This document shows positions 7,558-40,473 of a DNA stretch of 64,000 bases, piece by piece. The notes beneath the pieces are model-generated. The model saw only the letters and a list, made by a program, of their open reading frames with translations. It was not told the DNA's origin and ran no database searches. Location: contig LWTM01000071.1 in NCBI GenBank assembly GCA_002101205.1, positions 27,203 through 91,202 of the forward strand. The letters run 5' to 3'. The translations under genes were made by a program, and so were the position numbers. The DNA is from Cycloclasticus sp. symbiont of Poecilosclerida sp. N (GTDB lineage Bacteria > Pseudomonadota > Gammaproteobacteria > Methylococcales > Cycloclasticaceae). Numbering within the stretch: position 1 is the first letter of the stretch; every line of letters starts with the position of its first letter.

Positions 7558-8367
7558 ATGAAATTTGCATTAGGTATTGAATACGATGGCACACGTTATC
7601 ACGGTTGGCAGCGTCAAAAAAACACGCCTTTAACGGTTCAGCAGAAGGTTGAAAAAGCACTGAGTGTTTTGGCAGACCATCCTGTTAGCGTTATATGCGC
7701 TGGGCGTACAGACGCCGGTGTTCATGCGTTTGAGCAAGTTGTTCATTTTGAAACCAACAAGCAAAGGCAAGAGCATCACTGGGTATTGGGTACTAATGCT
7801 AATTTACCGGCAGATATCCGTATTGTTTGGGTTAAACCCGTTAGTGAGGACTTTCACGCAAGGTACTCGGCTGCAGCGCGTTATTATCGTTATAAAATAC
7901 TAAATCGTTGGGTCAAGTCTGCGTTATATCAAAGCCATGTGTCGAGCACATTTCAGCCGCTAAACGAAGATCTGATGCAACAAGGTGCCAATCACTTATT
8001 GGGCACGCATGATTTTTCTTCCTTTCGGGCGGGTGGTTGCCAAGCTAAATCGCCAATTAAGCATATTCATTCGATATCAATCAAGCGCACTGATGATAAA
8101 ATAAGCATTGATATTATCGCGAGTGCTTTTTTACACCATATGGTGAGAAACATTGTCGGCACACTAACCCCGGTGGGTTTAGGTGAGAAGCCTACGCAAT
8201 GGGTTGCTGATGTTTTAGCTGCAAAAGACAGGAAGGTGGCCGGCGTTACAGCCGCGCCAAACGGGCTGTATTTTAAAGGGGTTTATTACCCTAAGAAATT
8301 CGGCATTAGCACCTTAAAGGCGTTTGAACCTTATTGCGATGTGATTGAAATGAAATCGACAGTTTAA
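7558..8367 (+). CDS. truA: tRNA pseudouridine(38-40) synthase
   Basis: GIEYDGTRYHGWQRQ, CAGRTDAGVHA, FLHHMVRNIVG. Confidence 0.97.
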   Translation: MKFALGIEYDGTRYHGWQRQKNTPLTVQQKVEKALSVLADHPVSVICAGRTDAGVHAFEQVVHFETNKQRQEHHWVLGTNANLPADIRIVWVKPVSEDFHARYSAAARYYRYKILNRWVKSALYQSHVSSTFQPLNEDLMQQGANHLLGTHDFSSFRAGGCQAKSPIKHIHSISIKRTDDKISIDIIASAFLHHMVRNIVGTLTPVGLGEKPTQWVADVLAAKDRKVAGVTAAPNGLYFKGVYYPKKFGISTLKAFEPYCDVIEMKSTV

Positions 8368-8379
8368 TAGGAAATAACA

Positions 8380-9003
8380 TTGAGAACACGTGCCAAAATT
8401 TGCGGAATCACCCAAACAAGCGATGCGATGGCAGCGGTTGAGGCAGGTGCGGATGCCTTGGGTTTTGTGTTTTATGAACCCAGCCCACGCTTTGTTGATA
8501 TCAATAGAGCGAAATTAATATGCGGTGAAATAGCACCATTTATCAATACAGTAGCACTATTTTTGAATGCAAATTCTAGTTACGTAGAAGAGGTTTTAGC
8601 AAAGGTTAGAATTGACATTATTCAGTTTCATGGCGATGAAGATGAGGCGTATTGCCGCTCGTTTAATAGACCTTATTTGAAAGCGCTTAGGGTAAAAGAA
8701 ACGACGGATTTAACACAGCTGGCTGAAACATATGCGTCAGCGTCAGGTCTATTATTAGACGCTTTTGATAGCTCACAATACGGCGGCACCGGTAAAACAT
8801 TCGATTGGGATTTGTTACCTAAAACGTCTGCTTTACCGCTGATTTTAGCCGGTGGGTTAAACCCGTCCAATGTTTGTGATGCGATAAAAAAAACATCCGT
8901 GTATGCGGTTGACGTGAGCAGCGGCGTGGAAAAGACTAAAGGTGTGAAAGATCATCAACTCATACAACAATTTATGCAGGAGGTGAAACGTGGCAACCAG
9001 TAA
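8380..9003 (+). CDS. trpF: Phosphoribosylanthranilate isomerase
   Basis: [27 protein letters not shown]. Confidence 0.96.
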
Positions 9004-10225
9004 TAATAAACGGGCACAAGCAACAGTACACGGCTATAACTTACCCGATGAAGCTGGGCATTTTGGCCCCTATGGTGGGCTATTTGTCGCTGAAACACTG
9101 ATGGAATCGATTGAGGAACTCAATGAAGCGTATGTGAAATTTATGCAGGACCCTGAGTTTTTAGCAGAGCTTGATGCGGATTTGCAAGACTACGTAGGTC
9201 GCCCATCGCCTATTTATCATGCGCAGCGCTTGAGTAAAGAAATCGGTGGCGCACAAGTCTATCTGAAAAGAGAGGATCTAAATCACACGGGCGCACATAA
9301 AATTAACAACACGGTTGGTCAGGCATTGTTAGCTAAACGCATGGGTAAAACGCGCATCATCGCTGAAACCGGCGCGGGGCAACACGGCGTTGCAACGGCA
9401 ACGGTAGCTGCTCGTCTTGGCTTAGAGTGTGTTGTTTATATGGGCGCAGAAGATATTCAGCGCCAATCACCCAATGTGTACAGAATGCGCTTACTGGGCG
9501 CAACGGTTGTGCCGGTGGTCTCTGGTTCACAAACGCTTAAAGATGCGCTTAGTGAGGCGTTACGAGATTGGGTTACGAATATAGATAATACCTATTACAT
9601 TATCGGTACCGTAGCCGGACCACACCCATACCCCGCAATGGTGAGAGATTTTCAAACGATTATTGGGCGAGAAGGGCGCGAGCAAATGTTAAATAAAACG
9701 GGCGCGTTACCAAATGCACTAGTTGCTTGCGTGGGCGGTGGCTCTAATGCGATTGGGCTTTTTCACCCCTTTATTGAAGATGACGGGGTGAAAATTTATG
9801 GTGTTGAAGCCGCTGGTTTAGGCGTTGAAACGGGTAAGCATTCAGCGCCGTTATGCGCCGGTAAGCCGGGTGTTTTACACGGCAATAGGACCTATTTGAT
9901 GGCGGATGAAGATGGTGCGATTATTGAAACGCACTCAATCTCAGCCGGTCTAGATTACCCAGCTGTGGGCCCTGAGCATTCATGGCTTAAAGATATTGGC
10001 CGGGCGCAGTACGTGAATATTACCGATGATGAGGCATTAGCGGCCTTCCACCAACTAACACGGGTAGAAGGCATTATTCCCGCTTTGGAATCTAGTCACG
10101 CCGTTGCCTACGCAACAAAGTTAGCGAAAACCATGGATAAAGAAGAAACCATTCTGGTTTGTTTGTCGGGACGCGGCGATAAAGATATTTTCACCATTGC
10201 AAAAATAGAAGGGATTGAGCTGTGA
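8990..10225 (+). CDS. trpB: Tryptophan synthase beta chain
   Basis: [18 protein letters not shown] Lys motif, [14 protein letters not shown]; overlaps trpF. Confidence 0.98.
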
Positions 10226-11037
10226 GCCGTTTAGACGATTGCTTTGCTGCGCTTGATGCGGCAAATAAAAAAGCCTTAATACCGTTTGTTACAGCGGGTG
10301 ACCCGAATGCAGATTTCACGCTAACGTGTATGCACGAGATGGTTCAAGCGGGCGCGAATATTATTGAATTAGGCGTGCCTTTTTCAGACCCAATGTCGGA
10401 TGGCCCAGTTATTCAAAAGGCAAGCGAAAGGGCTTTAGCGGCAGGTATGTCGCTAAAAGGCGTGATAGCGCTGGTCAAGCAGTTCAGAAAAACAGACCAG
10501 AAAACACCTCTTATTCTGATGGGTTATCTCAACCCGATTGAGTTTATGGGCTATGAACGCTTTGCTGAAAAAGCCTCACAAGCAGGTGTTGATGGGGTCT
10601 TGACCGTTGATATTCCGCCAGAAGAAAGCGCAGACTTAATAGCGGCTTATGAAAAGCACGCGCTGGCGCCCATTTTTTTATTGTCGCCGACCAGTAATGA
10701 AACACGAATTAAAAAGATTGCGGCTGTTGCGAAAGGGTATATTTATTATGTGTCGCTGAAAGGTGTCACGGGCGCAGGGCACCTTGAACTAGGTGACGTG
10801 GAACAGAAGGTGCGGCAGATTAAACAACATACGGCGTTGCCGATTGCGGTTGGTTTTGGTGTTAAAAATTCCGACATCGCTGCGAATATTGCTAAAATAA
10901 GCGACGCTGTGGTGGTAGGTAGCGCGCTGATTAACTGTATTACCGACCATGCCGGCAACGAACAACACGGCCGAGAGGCTATTGATGACTTACTGGTTGG
11001 GATGCGAACAGCGATGGACGCAGTCCCTCGTGATTGA
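10222..11037 (+). CDS. trpA: Tryptophan synthase alpha chain
   Basis: [36 protein letters not shown]-type overlap with trpB. Confidence 0.97.
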
Positions 11038-11070
11038 ATTAATAGGTATTGTGGTTGAAACAGGTGATGC

Positions 11071-11973
11071 ATGAATTGGTTTGAAAAATTAATTCCAAAC
11101 GGTATAAAACTTTCAAGTAAGTCCAAAAGCTCGGTGCCAGAGGGTTTATGGTGCAAATGTGACGGTTGCCAAAGCGTATTGTATAAAACAGATTTAGAAA
11201 GTAATTTCTATGTCTGTCCTAAGTGTGCTTTTCATCAGCGCATTGGTGGACGACTTCGCCTTAGCTCATTTTTAGATGAAGCCGGTAGAGAAGAAATCGG
11301 TGCGTCAGTTAGAGCACAAGACCCGCTAAAATTTAAAGACAGTAAAAAGTATAAAGACCGTCATTCTGCGGCGGTTAAGCAGACCGGCGAGACAGATGCG
11401 TTGGTTGTTATGAAAGGCAAAGTTCTGGAAATGGAATTGGTTGCAGCGGCGTTTGATTTCTTTTTTATGGGTGGCTCAATGGGTTCAGTGGTTGGCGAGC
11501 GATTTGTTCGTGCAGTGAATGCATCTATCGAACATAATATTCCGCTTATCTGCTTTTCATCTAGTGGCGGGGCGCGTATGCAAGAATCTCTGTTTTCATT
11601 GTTTCAAATGGCGAAAACAAGCGCGGCATTGGCCATCTTGTCAGAAAAGAAAATCCCTTTTATATCTGTGCTTACGGACCCCACAATGGGCGGTGTTTCG
11701 GCCAGTTTAGCGATGCTTGGCGATATCAATATTGCAGAACCTAATGCCTTGATTGGCTTTGCTGGGCAACGGGTTATTGAGCAAACAGTGAGCGAGAGGC
11801 TCCCTGAAGGTTTCCAGCGTAGCGAGTTCTTGCTTGAACACGGCGCTATCGATATGATCGTTGACCGTAGAGAAATGCGAACAACGGTTACGGAGATTTT
11901 GTCTTTATTGCACGCTGGACACCATTTGTTGGAAAAGGCACCCGCAGTAGACGTTAAATCCGAAGAGAAATAA
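11071..11973 (+). CDS. accD: Acetyl-CoA carboxylase carboxyltransferase beta subunit
   Basis: Zn ribbon CDGCQ...[21 protein letters not shown]. Confidence 0.97.
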
Positions 11974-12015
11974 GAGATCAACAAGCTCACCAATGTCTAT
12001 TCTTTAAATGAGTGG

Positions 12016-13248
12016 TTGGCGTGGCAGGAAAACTGTCACGTTAAAAAAATCGACTTAGGTTTACAGCGAGTCTCTAGCGTTTACAAACGTTTAAAAACCA
12101 GTACATCGAAAAAACCCTATACCATCACTGTTGCAGGCACCAATGGCAAGGGTTCTTGTGTCGCATTTTTAGAATCTATATTACTTGCTGAAGGCTATCG
12201 AGTAGGGGTTTATAGCACGCCGCACCTCCTTTGCTATAACGAAAGAGTCAGAGTTAATGGAGAAGCTGTCTCTGATGCGTCTCTTACAGAGGCGTTTTCC
12301 CGTATAGATAAAGCCCGTGAAAAAGTTAGCCTAAGTTATTTTGAGTTTGGCACATTAGCTGCGTTAACTATTTTTGAAAAACAAGACGTAGATATCCAGA
12401 TTCTTGAAGTGGGCCTTGGCGGTCGGCTAGATGCGGTTAATATTATAGACGCTAACGCAGCGTTAATTACCAGTATTGATATTGACCATGTCGCTTGGCT
12501 TGGCAACGACCGCTCAGTGATCGCTGTAGAAAAAGCGGGTGTTTTCAGGAAAAATCAAAAGGCAATATGTGCAGACAAAACAGTCCCCAACAGCCTGCCT
12601 GAATTTGCAGCTCAATTGAAAACAGATTTGAAACTGTCGGGTGTTGATTATAAGGTTGAAAAAGACGGTGATATTTGGCGACTGCTGATTGACCATGAGT
12701 TAGCAGGTGATTTCCCCATTCCCTCGCTCAAGGGTGAGCATCAAATTCAAAACGCAGCGGGTGTTGTCGCGTTGTTAGCACATGTTTCGGATGATATTCC
12801 TGTGCAAAAAACAAGTGTGCTGGACGGGTTACAAAATACATTTTTACCAGGTCGTTTACAGCTAGTTGGCACTGCGCCCGATATATATTTAGATGTGGCT
12901 CACAATCGACAATCAGCTGTTGCATTAGCTAAGTTCATTAAATGCAAAGAGTATAAGGGCGATATTCATGCGGTTTTTTCAATTCTTGACGATAAAGATT
13001 TAAGCAAAGTAACGGAGCCCTTTCTTGAATTTGTTAATTTCTGGTATATTGCACCTTTGAATATCGATCGCTCCGAGAAAATTGAATGCTTAAGTGAGTT
13101 TTTTAACCGTCATTCAAAGTATCAGTGTTCTGAACACAAATCGATTGAAAGTGCTTTTGCTAAAACAAGACAGTTGGCTAAAAAAGAAGATTTAGTTATA
13201 TGTTTTGGTTCTTTTTATGTAGTCGAAGCTTGTTTAGAAGGGCTATAA
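12016..13248 (+). CDS. folC: Bifunctional folylpolyglutamate/dihydrofolate synthase; true start uncertain
   Basis: GTNGKGSC P-loop, YSTPHL, DVAHN; family-like N-terminus (NVYSLNEWLAWQEN) extends upstream of the called TTG start. Confidence 0.93.
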   Translation: MAWQENCHVKKIDLGLQRVSSVYKRLKTSTSKKPYTITVAGTNGKGSCVAFLESILLAEGYRVGVYSTPHLLCYNERVRVNGEAVSDASLTEAFSRIDKAREKVSLSYFEFGTLAALTIFEKQDVDIQILEVGLGGRLDAVNIIDANAALITSIDIDHVAWLGNDRSVIAVEKAGVFRKNQKAICADKTVPNSLPEFAAQLKTDLKLSGVDYKVEKDGDIWRLLIDHELAGDFPIPSLKGEHQIQNAAGVVALLAHVSDDIPVQKTSVLDGLQNTFLPGRLQLVGTAPDIYLDVAHNRQSAVALAKFIKCKEYKGDIHAVFSILDDKDLSKVTEPFLEFVNFWYIAPLNIDRSEKIECLSEFFNRHSKYQCSEHKSIESAFAKTRQLAKKEDLVICFGSFYVVEACLEGL

Positions 13249-33822: not shown

Positions 33823-34391
33823 TTAGGCACCTCTCAGCTCCTTAAAATACCTTTCCTCATACTTCATTGACGACAACATATCATTGTTACCATGTTTTCG
33901 AACTGGATTATAAAACATCTCGATATAATCAAAAGCGTCCTGTTTGTGATTTAAGTTTGTTCTGATACATCAATCGTTCAACGCGGCTAATGCCGCAGGT
34001 CTGACCCAATTCTCGTAAATCGTGGCAAACCTTCCGATAACCATAAACGCAGCCACTTTCTAGCCACGACTGTTTAATAACGCCTAATAAACGCTGATCT
34101 TCGATCATACGTTTAGATTTTGGTCGCTTTAACCAAGCGTAATAGAACCGTTACGGCGCACATTGGCTGCCCGACACAATAACTTAGCACCATCTTGCGT
34201 TTGATGAGCGTTGATAAACGCATACCTCACCCAGACTCTCTGGCAAAATATGCTACGGCCCTCTTTAGTATGTCTCGTTCTTCTTCAGTACGCCTAAGCT
34301 GTGCCTTTAGACCTCGGATTTCTTTTTGTTGATCTGTTATTTGGTTGTTCTGTGAACTGCCATCACCATAACGCGCCACCCAGAAGTAAAG
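33823..34391 (-). pseudogene. IS3-family transposase remnant (OrfA C-term plus OrfB with internal deletion)
   Basis: Reverse strand encodes WVARYGDGSSQNNQITDQQKEIRGLKAQLRRTEEERDILKRAVAYFARESG* then YAWLKRPKSKRMIEDQRLLGVIKQSWLESGCVYGYRKVCHDLRELGQTCGISRVERLMYQNKLKSQTG, then out of frame DAFDYIEMFYNPVRKHGNNDMLSSMKYEERYFKELRGA*; central DDE region absent. Confidence 0.88.
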
Positions 34392-35013: not shown

Positions 35014-35275
35014 TGATTTCACAAAGGAGCAAGTTAGACACACGGATGATGTAGACCTTATTATCCATGTAGTGAATTACCCATCGTATTTAACACTAAA
35101 ACAAGAATTATCTGAGCGCGGATTTAAAGAGGTGATGGAGCATAATGACCCCATTTGCGCTATGCGATTGGGCGAGTTGCACGTCGATTTCATGTCAGAC
35201 AATGAAGATAGCCTAAACTTCGGCAATTGTTGGTACAAAATGGCCTGGGAAACAGCAGATGATTACCTTATATTT
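34958..35275 (+). pseudogene. Truncated nucleotidyltransferase (AbiEii/MNT-like) fragment, 3' side cut by transposon
   Basis: VRHTDDVDLIIHVVNYPSYLTLKQELSERGFKEV...LGELHVDFMSDNEDSLNFGNCWYKMAWETADDYLIF; residues after ...LIF in the ORF track are translated from the transposon end. Confidence 0.6.
35268..35275. repeat. 8-bp target site duplication, left copy (TTATATTT)
   Basis: Identical to 39284-39291 immediately outside the right inverted repeat. Confidence 0.93.
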
Positions 35276-35302
35276 GGGAATTATATACTTAAATCTACAA
35301 AA
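35276..35302 (+). repeat. Terminal inverted repeat, left (IRL)
   Basis: gggaattatatacttaaatctacaaaa; exact reverse complement of 39257-39283. Confidence 0.96.
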
Positions 35303-35306
35303 CACA

Positions 35307-35444
35307 TTAAACCCTTTCCTTTAATCGCCACTTCTGATTTTTCTCGGTCTTTGTAGGTTTCTTATTTTCGTATTTGACTTTGGTTTTTGGCTTGGATAGT
35401 AAAACTTCTTTTAGGGCTTTTTCCATTTGATTTAGGGTCGTCAT
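35307..35444 (-). CDS. 45-aa basic protein, last gene of transposon operon
   Basis: MTTLNQMEKALKEVLLSKPKTKVKYENKKPTKTEKNQKWRLKERV*; ATG overlaps the S-subunit stop (ATGA); stop lies 4 bp from IRL. Not in the supplied ORF track. Confidence 0.6.
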   Translation of the reverse strand: MTTLNQMEKALKEVLLSKPKTKVKYENKKPTKTEKNQKWRLKERV

Positions 35445-36418
35445 AGTGATTTAGAATAAGGCAGTGATTTAATGTAGTCTTCCATAAATTGCCAATCAGG
35501 CTGGTTGTTTTTTGTTGGTAATTTAATAATTTCTTTTTCAAGTCTATGTATTCTTGCTTGCCTGCCGTATGAATATTTATTAGTAGTTTTTTTTAAAACT
35601 GAAACAATAAATAAAGAGGCATAATTGTTTATTTTTAGTTTAGGAATAAGTGTGTGAACATTATCATCGCTAAAATATTGATAATCATGATAAAAAACAT
35701 TACAAAACATATCAATCGTTATTTTGTTTTTGAAAATATTTTTTTCAAATTGAAAATCTGAATAAGATATAAAATCAATAACCCCATTATTTTCACTTGA
35801 AGCCGTGATTAGTGGAATGTTTTTATCACTTTTTATTCTATCGTAAGTCGTTAGTCTTTCTCCTTTTTTAATATCAAAAATATCTGTCAATTTAAAATCA
35901 GCCCAATTATCAATTCTTAAGTTTTGATTAGAATTATTTACTGATTTATTAGATATATTGATTAAGGATTTTTGATAAAAATTAGTTAAATTAACTTTGA
36001 TATTTTTTGATATTTTTGCTGGAATTAAAACGTCTTTTAAAGTTTTATTAGCCTGTCTACCATAACTGTATTTATATTTATTACTGCTGATACACTTTGC
36101 GTAATAAAGCATTTCAATAATGCTAAGTTGCTTTCTAGGTGTTAAAACAAATATATGAAACCCTGTGTAATATTCAATCGGTTGATAAAAAGTTGATAAT
36201 ACCGAACCACCTAATGCAACTGATAAGGTGTGTTTTGAATTTAACTTTATGTCTAACTCTTTTTCCACAAAGGCAGACGCTCCATTATTATTTTCAGTTC
36301 TTGAAATAAACGGAATAGCGTTGTGGTTTGTGCTTTTAGTTTCTAATAGACTGATTAACTCTAGGCTATTTCCGTATTCAATATCAAAAATATCCGATAT
36401 TTTTACTAACTCACTCAT
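35441..36418 (-). CDS. R-M specificity (S) subunit, BcgI-B / HsdS-like
   Basis: Two TRD-like halves each starting F(D)IFDI..G and ending YSYGRQA...; overlaps upstream RM gene by 8 nt. Confidence 0.88.
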   Translation of the reverse strand: MSELVKISDIFDIEYGNSLELISLLETKSTNHNAIPFISRTENNNGASAFVEKELDIKLNSKHTLSVALGGSVLSTFYQPIEYYTGFHIFVLTPRKQLSIIEMLYYAKCISSNKYKYSYGRQANKTLKDVLIPAKISKNIKVNLTNFYQKSLINISNKSVNNSNQNLRIDNWADFKLTDIFDIKKGERLTTYDRIKSDKNIPLITASSENNGVIDFISYSDFQFEKNIFKNKITIDMFCNVFYHDYQYFSDDNVHTLIPKLKINNYASLFIVSVLKKTTNKYSYGRQARIHRLEKEIIKLPTKNNQPDWQFMEDYIKSLPYSKSL

Positions 36419-38240
36419 CGCAAAGCACTTGAGTGAAAATTTTATTTTTATGCAAAAAGGTTACATAATTTAAAATATCATTTTCAAAATCACGGTCAAA
36501 CAGACCAGAATAATCAGTATTCATATAAGCCTCCGCAACCCACTCATTATCGGCTGTAACGCACTTAGTAACACTAAATCCAGCCTCATTTTTTTTATTG
36601 TTATAGTTGGTAAGCCATTTTTGTTTTATATCTTTCCACGCACCGTAACCATCATACCTGCCTTGTATTTTTCGTTTAATAAACCCATCGTCTTTATAGT
36701 AGCCAAAATAAGTTTCTTTGGACTTTGGGTGTGGCTTGTGAGCCGTAAATAACATAATGCACGAAACTACGCCTACTTTAGAGTTATGAAACAACTCATC
36801 AGGCATTGAAAAAACAGCCTCTAAAGAATGTTTTTCAAGTAACTTTTTCTTAAAACCATAAACCTTTCCTTTTGTAGCTAAAGCACTCTGCATTGGAACA
36901 ATAGCAACACAAGTTCCACCATCTACTAAGCATTCTAAATTATTTAAGATAAATTCCAGTTCGTCATCATCGTGTTTTTTATCGGATTTATAAGGAGGGT
37001 TTAAAAATCCAACAGTTGGATTTTTAACCTTAACTTCTTTAATAATAGCATCGTCAAAACAACTCCCCTTAATAATACTAGTCTTGCCGTCTTGATGGAT
37101 GTACATATTGGAAACTGCCAAAGCAAAAATTTTAGATTGAAATTCCACCCCTATTAACTGTTTTGATTTAATTTCTTTTATTTTTGTTTCATCGCCTTTT
37201 GCATCTTCTATCATCTTGCTCATTGCACTTATTAGAAACCCACCTGTGCCTGTGCAGTTGTCATAAATAATAGAGTTTTTATTAACTTGTGCCAAATCAG
37301 AAAATAACTCGGTAATATGTGGTGGAGTTAGAACAATGCCTAAACTTTTATCGCTATTAGCATATCTTAAAAACTCAATATATAACTGACCTAAAACATC
37401 AAAATATTGATGGCTTTTAATAAAGGTGTTGATATTGCCATCAATATCATCAATGGTTTCTTTTAAAACTTTATCTTTTTGAGACAAAGAAGTATCAGTA
37501 TTTATAAAACTAAACTGTGTGTTGAGATTTTTTAGTTTTTTATCGCCAATGTCGGAACTTTCCAATTCATCTGACACAGTTTGAGTGAGTGCTTTGGCTA
37601 AATTTTCAGGGGTTTTATGAGAGGCATAAGATTTTTGAAAAGCGTCATTTTCCAAGGCAATTAGAATAGCACTGATTAAAAGACTTCTTTCACTTCCTAA
37701 AATTTTATTTGAATGTAATTTGGAGTTTAGGATTTTCGTAAAATCCAGTAAAATGTTGTAATCTTGTCTAAATTTTTCAGGACTTTTTAAATAATTTTGT
37801 AAATAGTCATCAACATTTAATAATTTATCACCAACAAAAGAAGCTGCTTTTTTTTCACCTTTTAAATGTAGAAAGTGCGAAATCTTTAATTCTTGTTTTG
37901 TTTCACCACTAATGGCAATCGCCAAAACATCAAACTCTTTAGACAGGTAAGAAGCGTAGAGTAAAGCACCATCAACAGCAAAATCTTTATATTTATCTCT
38001 ATTCTTGCTTTCATGATATTTTGTTTTCGCTTTACACTCAATAACAATCAATAAATCAGAGTTTGTTTTATAGGTGATTATAAATTCAGGATAGCCTTTT
38101 CCAAATCCGCCTTTTGATGCAGTTTTTAGCAGTTTATCTATTTTTGGATTATCGGAACGTTGCTCTTCAATTTCAATCTCTTTTAAAAACTGATTAAAAT
38201 GATTGCGTGTAATAATTTCTGTTTTTCTTTCATTCGCCAT
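36411..38240 (-). CDS. Fused restriction endonuclease-N6-adenine methyltransferase (Type IIB/IIG BcgI-A-like RM subunit)
   Basis: N-terminal PD-(D/E)xK-like YPEFIITYKTNSDLLIVIECKAK; HsdM-like core with YDNCTGTGGFL (SAM motif) and NPPY catalytic motif. Confidence 0.88.
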   Translation of the reverse strand: MANERKTEIITRNHFNQFLKEIEIEEQRSDNPKIDKLLKTASKGGFGKGYPEFIITYKTNSDLLIVIECKAKTKYHESKNRDKYKDFAVDGALLYASYLSKEFDVLAIAISGETKQELKISHFLHLKGEKKAASFVGDKLLNVDDYLQNYLKSPEKFRQDYNILLDFTKILNSKLHSNKILGSERSLLISAILIALENDAFQKSYASHKTPENLAKALTQTVSDELESSDIGDKKLKNLNTQFSFINTDTSLSQKDKVLKETIDDIDGNINTFIKSHQYFDVLGQLYIEFLRYANSDKSLGIVLTPPHITELFSDLAQVNKNSIIYDNCTGTGGFLISAMSKMIEDAKGDETKIKEIKSKQLIGVEFQSKIFALAVSNMYIHQDGKTSIIKGSCFDDAIIKEVKVKNPTVGFLNPPYKSDKKHDDDELEFILNNLECLVDGGTCVAIVPMQSALATKGKVYGFKKKLLEKHSLEAVFSMPDELFHNSKVGVVSCIMLFTAHKPHPKSKETYFGYYKDDGFIKRKIQGRYDGYGAWKDIKQKWLTNYNNKKNEAGFSVTKCVTADNEWVAEAYMNTDYSGLFDRDFENDILNYVTFLHKNKIFTQVLCDE

Positions 38241-38242
38241 AA

Positions 38243-39163
38243 TTACCCCGTCAATTCCTTGTAACTAATCCTATTATTGCCAATCCCTTTAAATAGCGAT
38301 ACCATTCTATCCTTGGTATCAATTTGACAATTACCCTCATTTAATCTAAATACAAACTCATCTATATAGCGGTTTAAATGTTTAGTGCTGATATTATGAA
38401 ATGTGCCGTTATATCCTCGTTTTAAAACTGCCCAAACACTCTCAATGCCGTTGGTGTGTGCCATACCATTTACATACTCTTTAGCACTATGATTAACCGT
38501 TTTATGGTTAAAACCACTCAATCCTAAATACCCTCTAAAGTCATCAGTATATACCGTGCTTTTTGCTTTAATATTATTATGTATGTTACCCTGTAAAGTT
38601 GCTTTGTTAGTTCTGTCTATGACCATTGCCTTAACTTTACCGCCTCGCTCTTTCATTCCAAATACGGCAGTTTTACCCACAGCACCACGCCCAGCGTTAA
38701 GTTTCTTGTGTGCGTGTTTATTTGCCTCTTTACCACCAACATAGGTCTCATCAACTTCAACAACATTAGACAGTTTAAACGAACCTTGTTTACAGGCTTG
38801 CCTAATTCTTTGCAACATAAACCAAGATGATTTTTGTGTAATACCCAATTCTTTACTGAGTTGTAGGCTTGATACACCTTTTCTTGAGGTTAGCATAGTG
38901 TAGATAGCAACTACCCATTTTTGAGTGGGTATTTTTGATGAGTGCATAATAGTATTTGTTTTTACCGTAAAGGCTTTTCTACAATCTTTATGCCAGTAAG
39001 TGTGCTTTTTAGATTTGTATTTACCTATATTATCAATGCCACCGCAATGATGACATACTGGCTCTTTATCCCATCTTATTTTTTCTAGCCACTTGATGGA
39101 TTTGTGTTCAGTTGAAAACTCTTTTAATAGTTCTATTATGCTAATTGTTTTTGCTTGTTTCAT
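38243..39163 (-). CDS. IS1595-family (ISXO2-like) transposase
   Basis: N-terminal zinc ribbon CHHCGG...; DDE-type motifs VVEVDETYVGGKE, VYTDDFRGY, NGIESVWAVLKRGYNGTFHNIS. Confidence 0.95.
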   Translation of the reverse strand: MKQAKTISIIELLKEFSTEHKSIKWLEKIRWDKEPVCHHCGGIDNIGKYKSKKHTYWHKDCRKAFTVKTNTIMHSSKIPTQKWVVAIYTMLTSRKGVSSLQLSKELGITQKSSWFMLQRIRQACKQGSFKLSNVVEVDETYVGGKEANKHAHKKLNAGRGAVGKTAVFGMKERGGKVKAMVIDRTNKATLQGNIHNNIKAKSTVYTDDFRGYLGLSGFNHKTVNHSAKEYVNGMAHTNGIESVWAVLKRGYNGTFHNISTKHLNRYIDEFVFRLNEGNCQIDTKDRMVSLFKGIGNNRISYKELTG

Positions 39164-39191
39164 ATTTGTGTTTTAAAGTTATTTGTAGATT

Positions 39192-39219
39192 ATTATACCA
39201 CTTTTAAATTAAAATACAA
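39192..39219 (-). promoter_or_regulatory. Candidate sigma70 promoter for the transposon operon
   Basis: Minus strand TTGTAT-16 nt-TATAAT (perfect -10) between the right IR and the transposase ATG. Confidence 0.6.
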
Positions 39220-39256
39220 TAGCATTTTTTACTTTCACTGTAAGGTTTTTTGGATA

Positions 39257-39283
39257 TTTTGTAGATTTAAGTATATAATTCCC
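39257..39283 (-). repeat. Terminal inverted repeat, right (IRR)
   Basis: ttttgtagatttaagtatataattccc; exact reverse complement of IRL. Confidence 0.96.
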
Positions 39284-39291
39284 TTATATTT
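39284..39291. repeat. 8-bp target site duplication, right copy (TTATATTT)
   Basis: Identical to 35268-35275. Confidence 0.93.
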
Positions 39292-39460
39292 GGTTGTGTT
39301 TTGAGCTGTCACCAGCATAACGTGCACCTAGACATAAAGGCTTTTGGTGGCACCACCCAATCGTTTTGCAACTTCATAAACAGAATAGTTGCGTTCGGCC
39401 ATTTGTTTAACCGCTCCCATCTGAAATTCTTCGGTGTATCTCTTGCTCGTCCTAAACTTA
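39292..39460 (-). pseudogene. IS3-family OrfA 5' fragment (second, distinct IS3 remnant)
   Basis: Reverse strand reads SKRYTEEFQMGAVKQMAERNYSVYEVAKRLGGATKSLYV*, then frameshifted homology to the OrfA segment at 34330-34390. Confidence 0.8.
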
Positions 39461-39609
39461 TTCAATATTGCTATCATCATATAGCTGTTAGAGTGTCTAC
39501 AGTTCTCATGGCGATTCAGGTGGAAGTTCCTGGTTATTGCACGAACGCGGATGTCGTACGAAAAAATTATTTCGCTCGGTGATGTTACTACAAAAGTTTT
39601 AGACGAAGC

Positions 39610-39714: not shown

Positions 39715-40473
39715 ATGGAATCTGAAGATCAAACAGGTCAAAAAGATCAAACAGGTCAAAAAGATCAAACAGGTCAAAAAGATCAAACAGGCCAAAAGGA
39801 GCAAACAAGCCAAAAGGATCAAACAGGCCAAAAGGATCAAACAGGCCAAAAGGATCAAACAGGTCAAAAGGAGCAAAGCGATGCGCAAGAGCCGCCTGTT
39901 GATACTGAAGAAAGTCTAGTCGAAGATGGTCTTGAAGAGCCTAAAACAGAGGAATCTGAGAAAAGCGCTAACCTAGAAGCAGAGCTTGAAGCCGCAAATA
40001 TTAAGGCCAGTGACAATTGGGATCAGTTTTTATTGGCTAAAGCAGATGTGGAAAATATTCGCCGACGGACTAACAAAGATATAGAAAAAGCACATCGTTA
40101 TGCAATTGAAAAGTTTGCAAAAGACATGCTCCCTGTCGTGGATAGCTTAGAGATGGGACTTACTGTAACGGATGATGCAAAAACAGATATAACAGCCTTA
40201 AAAGAAGGTATGGAATTAACGTATAAACAGTTGATTGCTTCGTTGGAAAAATCAGGTGTTGTACAGGTAAGCCCAGAGGGTGAAGTATTTAACCCAGAAT
40301 TGCATCAGGCGATTTCTGTTGTGCCTAGCCCTGACCATAAGCCCAATACGGTGTTGGAGGTTTTCCAAAAGGGTTACACATTAAATGGACGCTTGTTACG
40401 CCCGGCGATGGTTATTGTAACGCCGGCAGGTGCCGTGCGAACCAGCACAAAGGAAATAGATGAACAGGCTTGA
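39715..40473 (+). CDS. grpE: Nucleotide exchange factor GrpE with repeat-expanded N-terminus
   Basis: WDQFLLAKADVENIRRRTNKDIEKAHRYAIEKFAKDMLPVVDSLE, GFQKGYTLNGRLLRPAMV-like C-term; directly upstream of dnaK. Confidence 0.95.
   Translation: MESEDQTGQKDQTGQKDQTGQKDQTGQKEQTSQKDQTGQKDQTGQKDQTGQKEQSDAQEPPVDTEESLVEDGLEEPKTEESEKSANLEAELEAANIKASDNWDQFLLAKADVENIRRRTNKDIEKAHRYAIEKFAKDMLPVVDSLEMGLTVTDDAKTDITALKEGMELTYKQLIASLEKSGVVQVSPEGEVFNPELHQAISVVPSPDHKPNTVLEVFQKGYTLNGRLLRPAMVIVTPAGAVRTSTKEIDEQA
39727..39870 (+). repeat. 18-bp in-frame tandem repeat (8 units, DQTGQK) in grpE
   Basis: gatcaaacaggtcaaaaa and near-identical units x8, then partial unit gagcaa. Confidence 0.96.

Follow-up and report, generated by a model that had tools for sequence, protein, structure and literature searches.

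Organization of the element

The 64-kb window analyzed here, the whole stretch of contig LWTM01000071.1 (assembly GCA_002101205.1) to which positions refer, sits within a 91-kb contig of a Cycloclasticus symbiont whose host, a Poecilosclerida sponge, comes from an asphalt seep in the Gulf of Mexico (PMC11409719, Table 1). At 35276-39283 it holds a 4,008-bp unit that is best read as a transposon carrying a restriction-modification (R-M) system. All four genes of the unit lie on the minus strand: an intact 306-aa transposase of the IS1595/ISXO2 type (38243-39163; PF12762 and NCBIfam profiles), a 609-aa fused nuclease-methylase resembling BcgI-A (36411-38240; PADLOC REase_MTase_IIG, PF02384 and motifs), a 325-aa specificity (S) subunit with two half-repeats (35441-36418; PF01420 Methylase_S and PADLOC Specificity_II), and a basic open reading frame (ORF) of 45 aa (MTTLNQMEKALKEVLLSKPKTKVKYENKKPTK...; 35307-35444), whose stop is separated by 4 bp from the inner boundary of the adjacent terminal repeat.

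The unit is bounded by perfect 27-bp terminal inverted repeats (IRs), the left one, GGGAATTATATACTTAAATCTACAAAA, starting with GGG (35276-35302, plus strand) and the right one its exact reverse complement (39257-39283, minus strand). Outside them stands an 8-bp target site duplication (TSD), TTATATTT, with its left copy at 35268-35275 and its right copy at 39284-39291. A perfect 27-bp inverted pair 4 kb apart is not the product of chance, and two random 8-mers in the window would match with a frequency of about 7e-5. An earlier reading made from the DNA letters alone, hereafter the sequence-only reading, had proposed these repeats, this duplication and this length, and it was right in each. 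Gene junctions within the unit are tight: the transposase stop falls 2 nt ahead of the R-M start, the R-M and S genes overlap by 8 nt, and S overlaps the 45-aa ORF by 4 nt (ATGA). We infer from these junctions that the four genes form one translationally coupled operon.

The transposase matches PF12762 (DDE_Tnp_IS1595) at 1.3e-42 and the NCBIfam profile transpos_IS1595 (NF033547) with 204 bits against a cut-off of 75, in agreement with the family proposed for it by the sequence-only reading. Its motifs DETYVGG, VYTDDFRGY, HTNGIESVWAVLK and YIDEFVFRLN agree with the published ISApl4 pattern. The 8-bp TSD of IS1595 elements is present here (TTATATTT) and in relatives (ATTTAAAA, TAAATAAT, TAAAAAAA and TTAAAAAT), as are, in the window element, IRs starting with GGG, the IR of ISApl4 being GGGGCTGTACTAGA. 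The closest described assemblage is the ISXO2/ISSod11-like group of the family (Siguier 2009, as cited in PMC12561309).

The cargo has the appearance of a complete R-M pair. The 609-aa protein matches the PADLOC model REase_MTase_IIG over residues 28-599, nearly its full length (555 bits, 6e-167), and also a second IIG model of 637 positions, while Pfam yields the N6 methylase alone (PF02384). Alignment with seven relatives shows no variation at P51, E68 and K70 and only E or D at position 52, which gives a PD-(D/E)xK-like motif; NPPY, the methylase motif, is likewise constant, and CTGTGGF almost so. The S subunit contains two PF01420 stretches, and its gene an internal direct repeat 510 bp apart. 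A fused R-M chain with a two-domain S is the layout of BcgI-like enzymes, and we infer that the cargo is a BcgI-like type IIB/IIG pair with predicted restriction activity. Passenger genes are known in the IS1595 family. In the literature searched, which did not take in the key 2009 family paper, we found no IS1595 element described as carrying an R-M, and the novelty of this cargo is provisional.

Related elements and horizontal spread

The sequence-only reading held that the whole unit had moved as a single R-M-bearing transposon, a view it staked on other genomes holding the cargo between such IRs. One that does is the methanotrophic symbiont of Bathymodiolus brooksi (L040), where the unit at 8135-12052 repeats the order of transposase, R-M, S and 45-aa ORF between 27-bp IRs, flanked by a different exact TSD, ATTTAAAA. 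Its R-M protein is 96% identical in amino acids to that of the window, and the symbiont belongs to another GTDB family of the order. Further R-M elements have TSDs of their own. One lies in the window's own genome (C55), with IRs, the TSD TAAATAAT, a frameshifted transposase, a fusion of N6/N4 methylase and HNH restriction endonuclease, and a 49-aa small ORF 53% identical to the 45-aa ORF of the window. Another, in Thioglobaceae (L107), the GTDB family of the Bathymodiolus azoricus thiotroph, has a transposase interrupted by a stop, an R-M-S fused into one chain of 797 aa, and a small ORF of 48 aa; its IRs are of a second sequence type, and its TSD is TAAAAAAA once one end base is read as mutated. 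These are independent insertions, and the proposal of a single R-M-bearing transposon stands.

Several other copies are decayed. The genome of L107 contains a second one (L137), with a degraded transposase, an Eco57I/N6 methylase of 724 aa, an S of 496 aa, a 45-aa ORF with one stop, and an IR. In Candidatus Ruthturnera (L041) and in the methanotrophic symbiont of an Iophon sponge (L055), the transposase is decayed and a fused 782-aa R-M-S is open. A 3.2-kb contig of the B. azoricus thiotroph (L050) is filled by R-M, S, the 45-aa ORF and the end of a transposase. In the window's genome, decayed copies on C68, C73 and C74 retain the ends of S genes along with small ORFs and one end, and among these several related remnants the window copy is the sole one with an intact transposase frame.

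The window R-M is absent from all 17 congeners, whose dnaK genes are only 79-85% identical in DNA. Set against the 96% identity of the R-M protein to that of L040, this distribution shows that the R-M moved horizontally. We found no match to the whole element by megablast against plasmids. In a phage collection the transposase had only two relatives, which lacked annotation and were 37-40% identical, and plasmid relatives serving as controls (in Rhodobacteraceae, Entomospira, Methylocystis and Sulfitobacter) had no R-M adjoining the transposase inside an element.

Several observations were made beside these copies. Two phage-like contigs (L065 and L066) encode R-M proteins 77% and 70% identical to that of the window, without a transposase. 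Just beyond the end of the decayed copy on C73 (L011, 5656-6303) is an ORF that by eye resembles a TIR-domain protein, with a Bro-N IS1595 member and a subtilase nearby. Two different copies of the IS1595 transposase are frameshifted by an identical 16-bp insert, CCCTGTCAGGACTTTG, which occupies one and the same codon in each (L009:1615 and L012:4445). A similar insert comes next in L009, at position 1683, and CCCTGTCAGGACTTTG is absent from the window. In the Bathymodiolus heckerae thiotroph, a C5 DNA methylase gene begins right beyond the end of what remains of an R-M element (L110, 467-1513).

Mosaic evolution

In the transposase tree all R-M-bearing members fall into one clade (support 0.97), which is separate from simple copies and from the members that have P63C, RhuM or Bro-N genes as neighbors; the tree, midpoint rooted and including decayed genes stitched from tblastn pieces, is indicative. 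The parts of the element have not evolved in step, the transposase and the ends having diverged much further than the R-M core. Between the window and L040, the R-M has a synonymous divergence (dS) of 0.165 and a nonsynonymous divergence (dN) of 0.018, and dS reaches 0.93 in the transposase and 0.73 in the small ORF. Identity runs at 73-84% over most of the transposase end. It is 95-99% across the first half of S and the greater part of the R-M, and drops to about 50-60% over the second recognition domain of S, which has been replaced. Such unequal divergence means that R-M core, transposon backbone and half-S have separate histories, with cargo and specificity exchanged by recombination.

A putative small second gene and a proposed cargo slot

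The sequence-only reading counted three cargo ORFs. Three are indeed present, and S and R-M can be regarded as cargo; the 45-aa ORF, which in another element stands beside an unrelated R-M, looks instead like a component of the transposon. Against other copies it shows a dN/dS of 0.05-0.34, and an alignment with homologues from seven other elements has seven invariant positions among the eight sequences. Elements with unrelated or fused R-M cargo are among these seven, and the ORF occurs next to three unrelated R-M types, which argues that it belongs to the transposon and not to one R-M. No convincing family for it was found in Pfam or PHROGs. The ORF, apparently a second gene of the element that had been overlooked, has parallels farther afield. 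In IS1595 copies of viral contigs (L145, L175, L176 and L178) and of Rhodothermales (L043 and L044), a 42- to 63-aa ORF follows the transposase via an ATGA overlap, and these ORFs are mostly strongly basic, with a KPK or KPKxK-like stretch. On a Roseomonas marmotae plasmid (L181, 1685-4288), imperfect IRs with the 8-bp TATCTTTA on either side enclose an IS1595 transposase, an uncharacterized gene, a gene for a PIN-domain protein and a KPK ORF of 61 aa; the PIN-domain module is possibly a toxin-antitoxin cargo in the slot between transposase and KPK ORF.

These arrangements suggest an ancestor with two genes, transposase and small ORF, and a slot for cargo where the two meet, the homology of the most distant small ORFs being judged from position, charge and KPK stretch only. 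We tentatively extend this, with a little less than even confidence, to the proposal that this group of IS1595 elements comprises two-gene transposons, a transposase and a coupled KPK protein, whose junction slot was in one clade refilled repeatedly with unrelated R-Ms; shuttling among co-occurring deep-sea symbionts, these would explain part of the R-M enrichment there.

Two further loci bear on passengers of the family. An IS1595 element at L135 (1624-3773), with perfect 24-bp IRs and the TSD TTAAAAAT, has a P63C-domain passenger gene coupled to its transposase by ATGA. At L009 (C63; 542-3992), an intact-looking DarT/DarG toxin-antitoxin pair stands between a broken copy of the window-type transposase and an exact IR. 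DarTG is a possible IS1595 cargo in C63; we did not accept it as a proven one, since IRs occur on both sides but the flanks are without a TSD and the right end resembles that of another element.

Nature of the unit and role of its cargo

We consider it very probable that the window unit is one intact transposon of the IS1595 family, with a transposase able to act on both 27-bp ends and to move a BcgI-like R-M operon as cargo, and that it belongs to an IS1595 clade of deep-sea, mostly invertebrate-symbiont gammaproteobacteria with one of several unrelated R-M modules between transposase and distal small basic ORF. The transposase would make staggered 8-bp insertions at AT-rich sites, and the cargo would be translated together with it from the transposase operon. 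The R-M may then guard the carrier against foreign DNA, punish loss of the element, or both, so that the element is kept in the population, while recombination between copies may swap the R-M core and single target recognition domains. A recent insertion and a still functional element, both suggested by the sequence-only reading, are plausible from the intactness of ends and frame.

Several observations weigh against this interpretation. No second identical copy, which would prove current activity, occurs in the window genome, and the L040 copy is probably dead, as an internal deletion has removed 29 aa from its transposase. No empty site was recovered: the dnaK locus was detected in 17 of 18 genomes in the congener search, but none of the six congener loci examined contains a match to the DNA upstream of 39532, and the region of insertion is not common to these six. 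An AlphaFold model of the 609-aa protein from 8 sequences reaches a mean predicted local distance difference test (pLDDT) score of 59.5 and falls below 50 at residues 66-155; because it is poor over the nuclease, the nuclease assignment rests on motif and profile. Most of the genomes compared are, moreover, metagenome-assembled.

That the IRs bound a chance or composite arrangement, an insertion sequence (IS) having landed beside a resident R-M with the second end incidental, we regard as extremely improbable: stand-alone relatives of the window R-M without a transposase do exist, but a perfect IR pair and a TSD enclose the whole unit, L040 repeats that unit with another TSD, and three more R-M-bearing elements share its layout, two of them with exact TSDs. 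Neither is this a composite transposon with two flanking IS copies, as there is one transposase gene and one IR pair. The R-M might be kept purely as a defense against phages and other mobile genetic elements, with the transposon a mere vehicle and no addiction effect. To this we assign a probability slightly short of even. The fused R-M-S of L041 and L055 has remained open and constrained after decay of the transposase, with a dN/dS of 0.08 between the two, indicating that it was retained after transposase death; replacement of a recognition domain is what phage arms races favor; and related R-Ms occur on viral contigs and stand alone in other Methylococcales. Yet the decayed copies on C73 and C74 of the sponge symbiont have lost the R-M gene but keep pieces of S and of the small ORF and, on C74, of the transposase as well, and the PIN cargo of the Roseomonas plasmid transposon and the DarTG genes beside an IS1595 remnant suggest that the wider group has cargo of the addiction type.

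The same cargo, the PIN module with its exact TSD and, less securely, DarTG, speaks for the alternative put forward by the sequence-only reading, in which the R-M is a selfish addiction module: on loss of the element, under-methylated host sites would be cut, and this postsegregational killing would stabilize the transposon. Such killing is established for several type II R-Ms (Kobayashi, as cited in PMC4612132). We hold this to be possible but rather doubtful, as decayed copies without an R-M exist. BcgI-like enzymes, moreover, are single bifunctional chains in which cutting and methylation are linked, and strong killing on loss is not generally expected of them. For the transposon favored here, the R-M most likely defends its carrier and perhaps also imposes a cost when the element is lost, two roles that the data do not tell apart.

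Genomic setting

On either side of the element, at 33929-34379 and 39328-39480, are apparent fragments of IS3-type transposases, judged by eye from their translations. An 18-bp tandem repeat of 8.4 copies at 39727-39877 lengthens the GrpE N terminus with DQTGQK repeats. The window genome has a pmoA-type gene and lacks a ring-hydroxylating dioxygenase, unlike 14 of 17 congeners.

Restriction systems among deep-sea symbionts

Bathymodiolus thiotrophs have 10 to 22 R-M genes, compared with one in SUP05 and none in clam symbionts, and the cause is unexplained (PMC4612132). For symbionts of the vent snail Gigantopelta, the figure of expanded gene families includes both N-6 DNA methylase and IS1595 transposase (PMC7895826). 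Published mussel-symbiont work reports many R-M genes and transposases, leaving the arrival route of the R-Ms unstated (PMC4612132). Here R-M and transposase are physically joined in a unit that has exact ends, has inserted independently and exchanges R-M types, which turns a vague correlation into something testable. The window element is a concrete vehicle by which R-Ms may spread among deep-sea symbionts, and Campeche sponges harbor methanotrophs, SUP05 and Cycloclasticus together (PMC6474228). It is also a case in which restriction systems are carried between bacteria of similar animal hosts or shared seeps by small IS-like elements and not by plasmids or phages.

Comparison with known systems

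With the IS1595 family, and its ISXO2/ISSod11-like members in particular, the element shares the transposase profile, IRs starting with GGG and an 8-bp AT-rich TSD (ISApl4 has repeats such as TTAAAAAT); it differs in holding a full R-M operon between the transposase and a conserved small basic ORF. The cargo resembles BcgI-like type IIB/IIG systems in domain order, sizes (609 and 325 aa), N6 methylase, PD-(D/E)xK-like motif and two-domain S. Those systems, however, are usually stand-alone or borne by phages and plasmids, whereas this one lies within a transposon and its operon, and its relatives include fused one-chain R-M-S forms. As in the mobile R-Ms flanked by IS copies or IRs of Kobayashi's concept, and in composite transposons, the R-M travels as DNA cargo, but the window element does so with one transposase and one IR pair, in a clade that exchanges R-M types in one slot.

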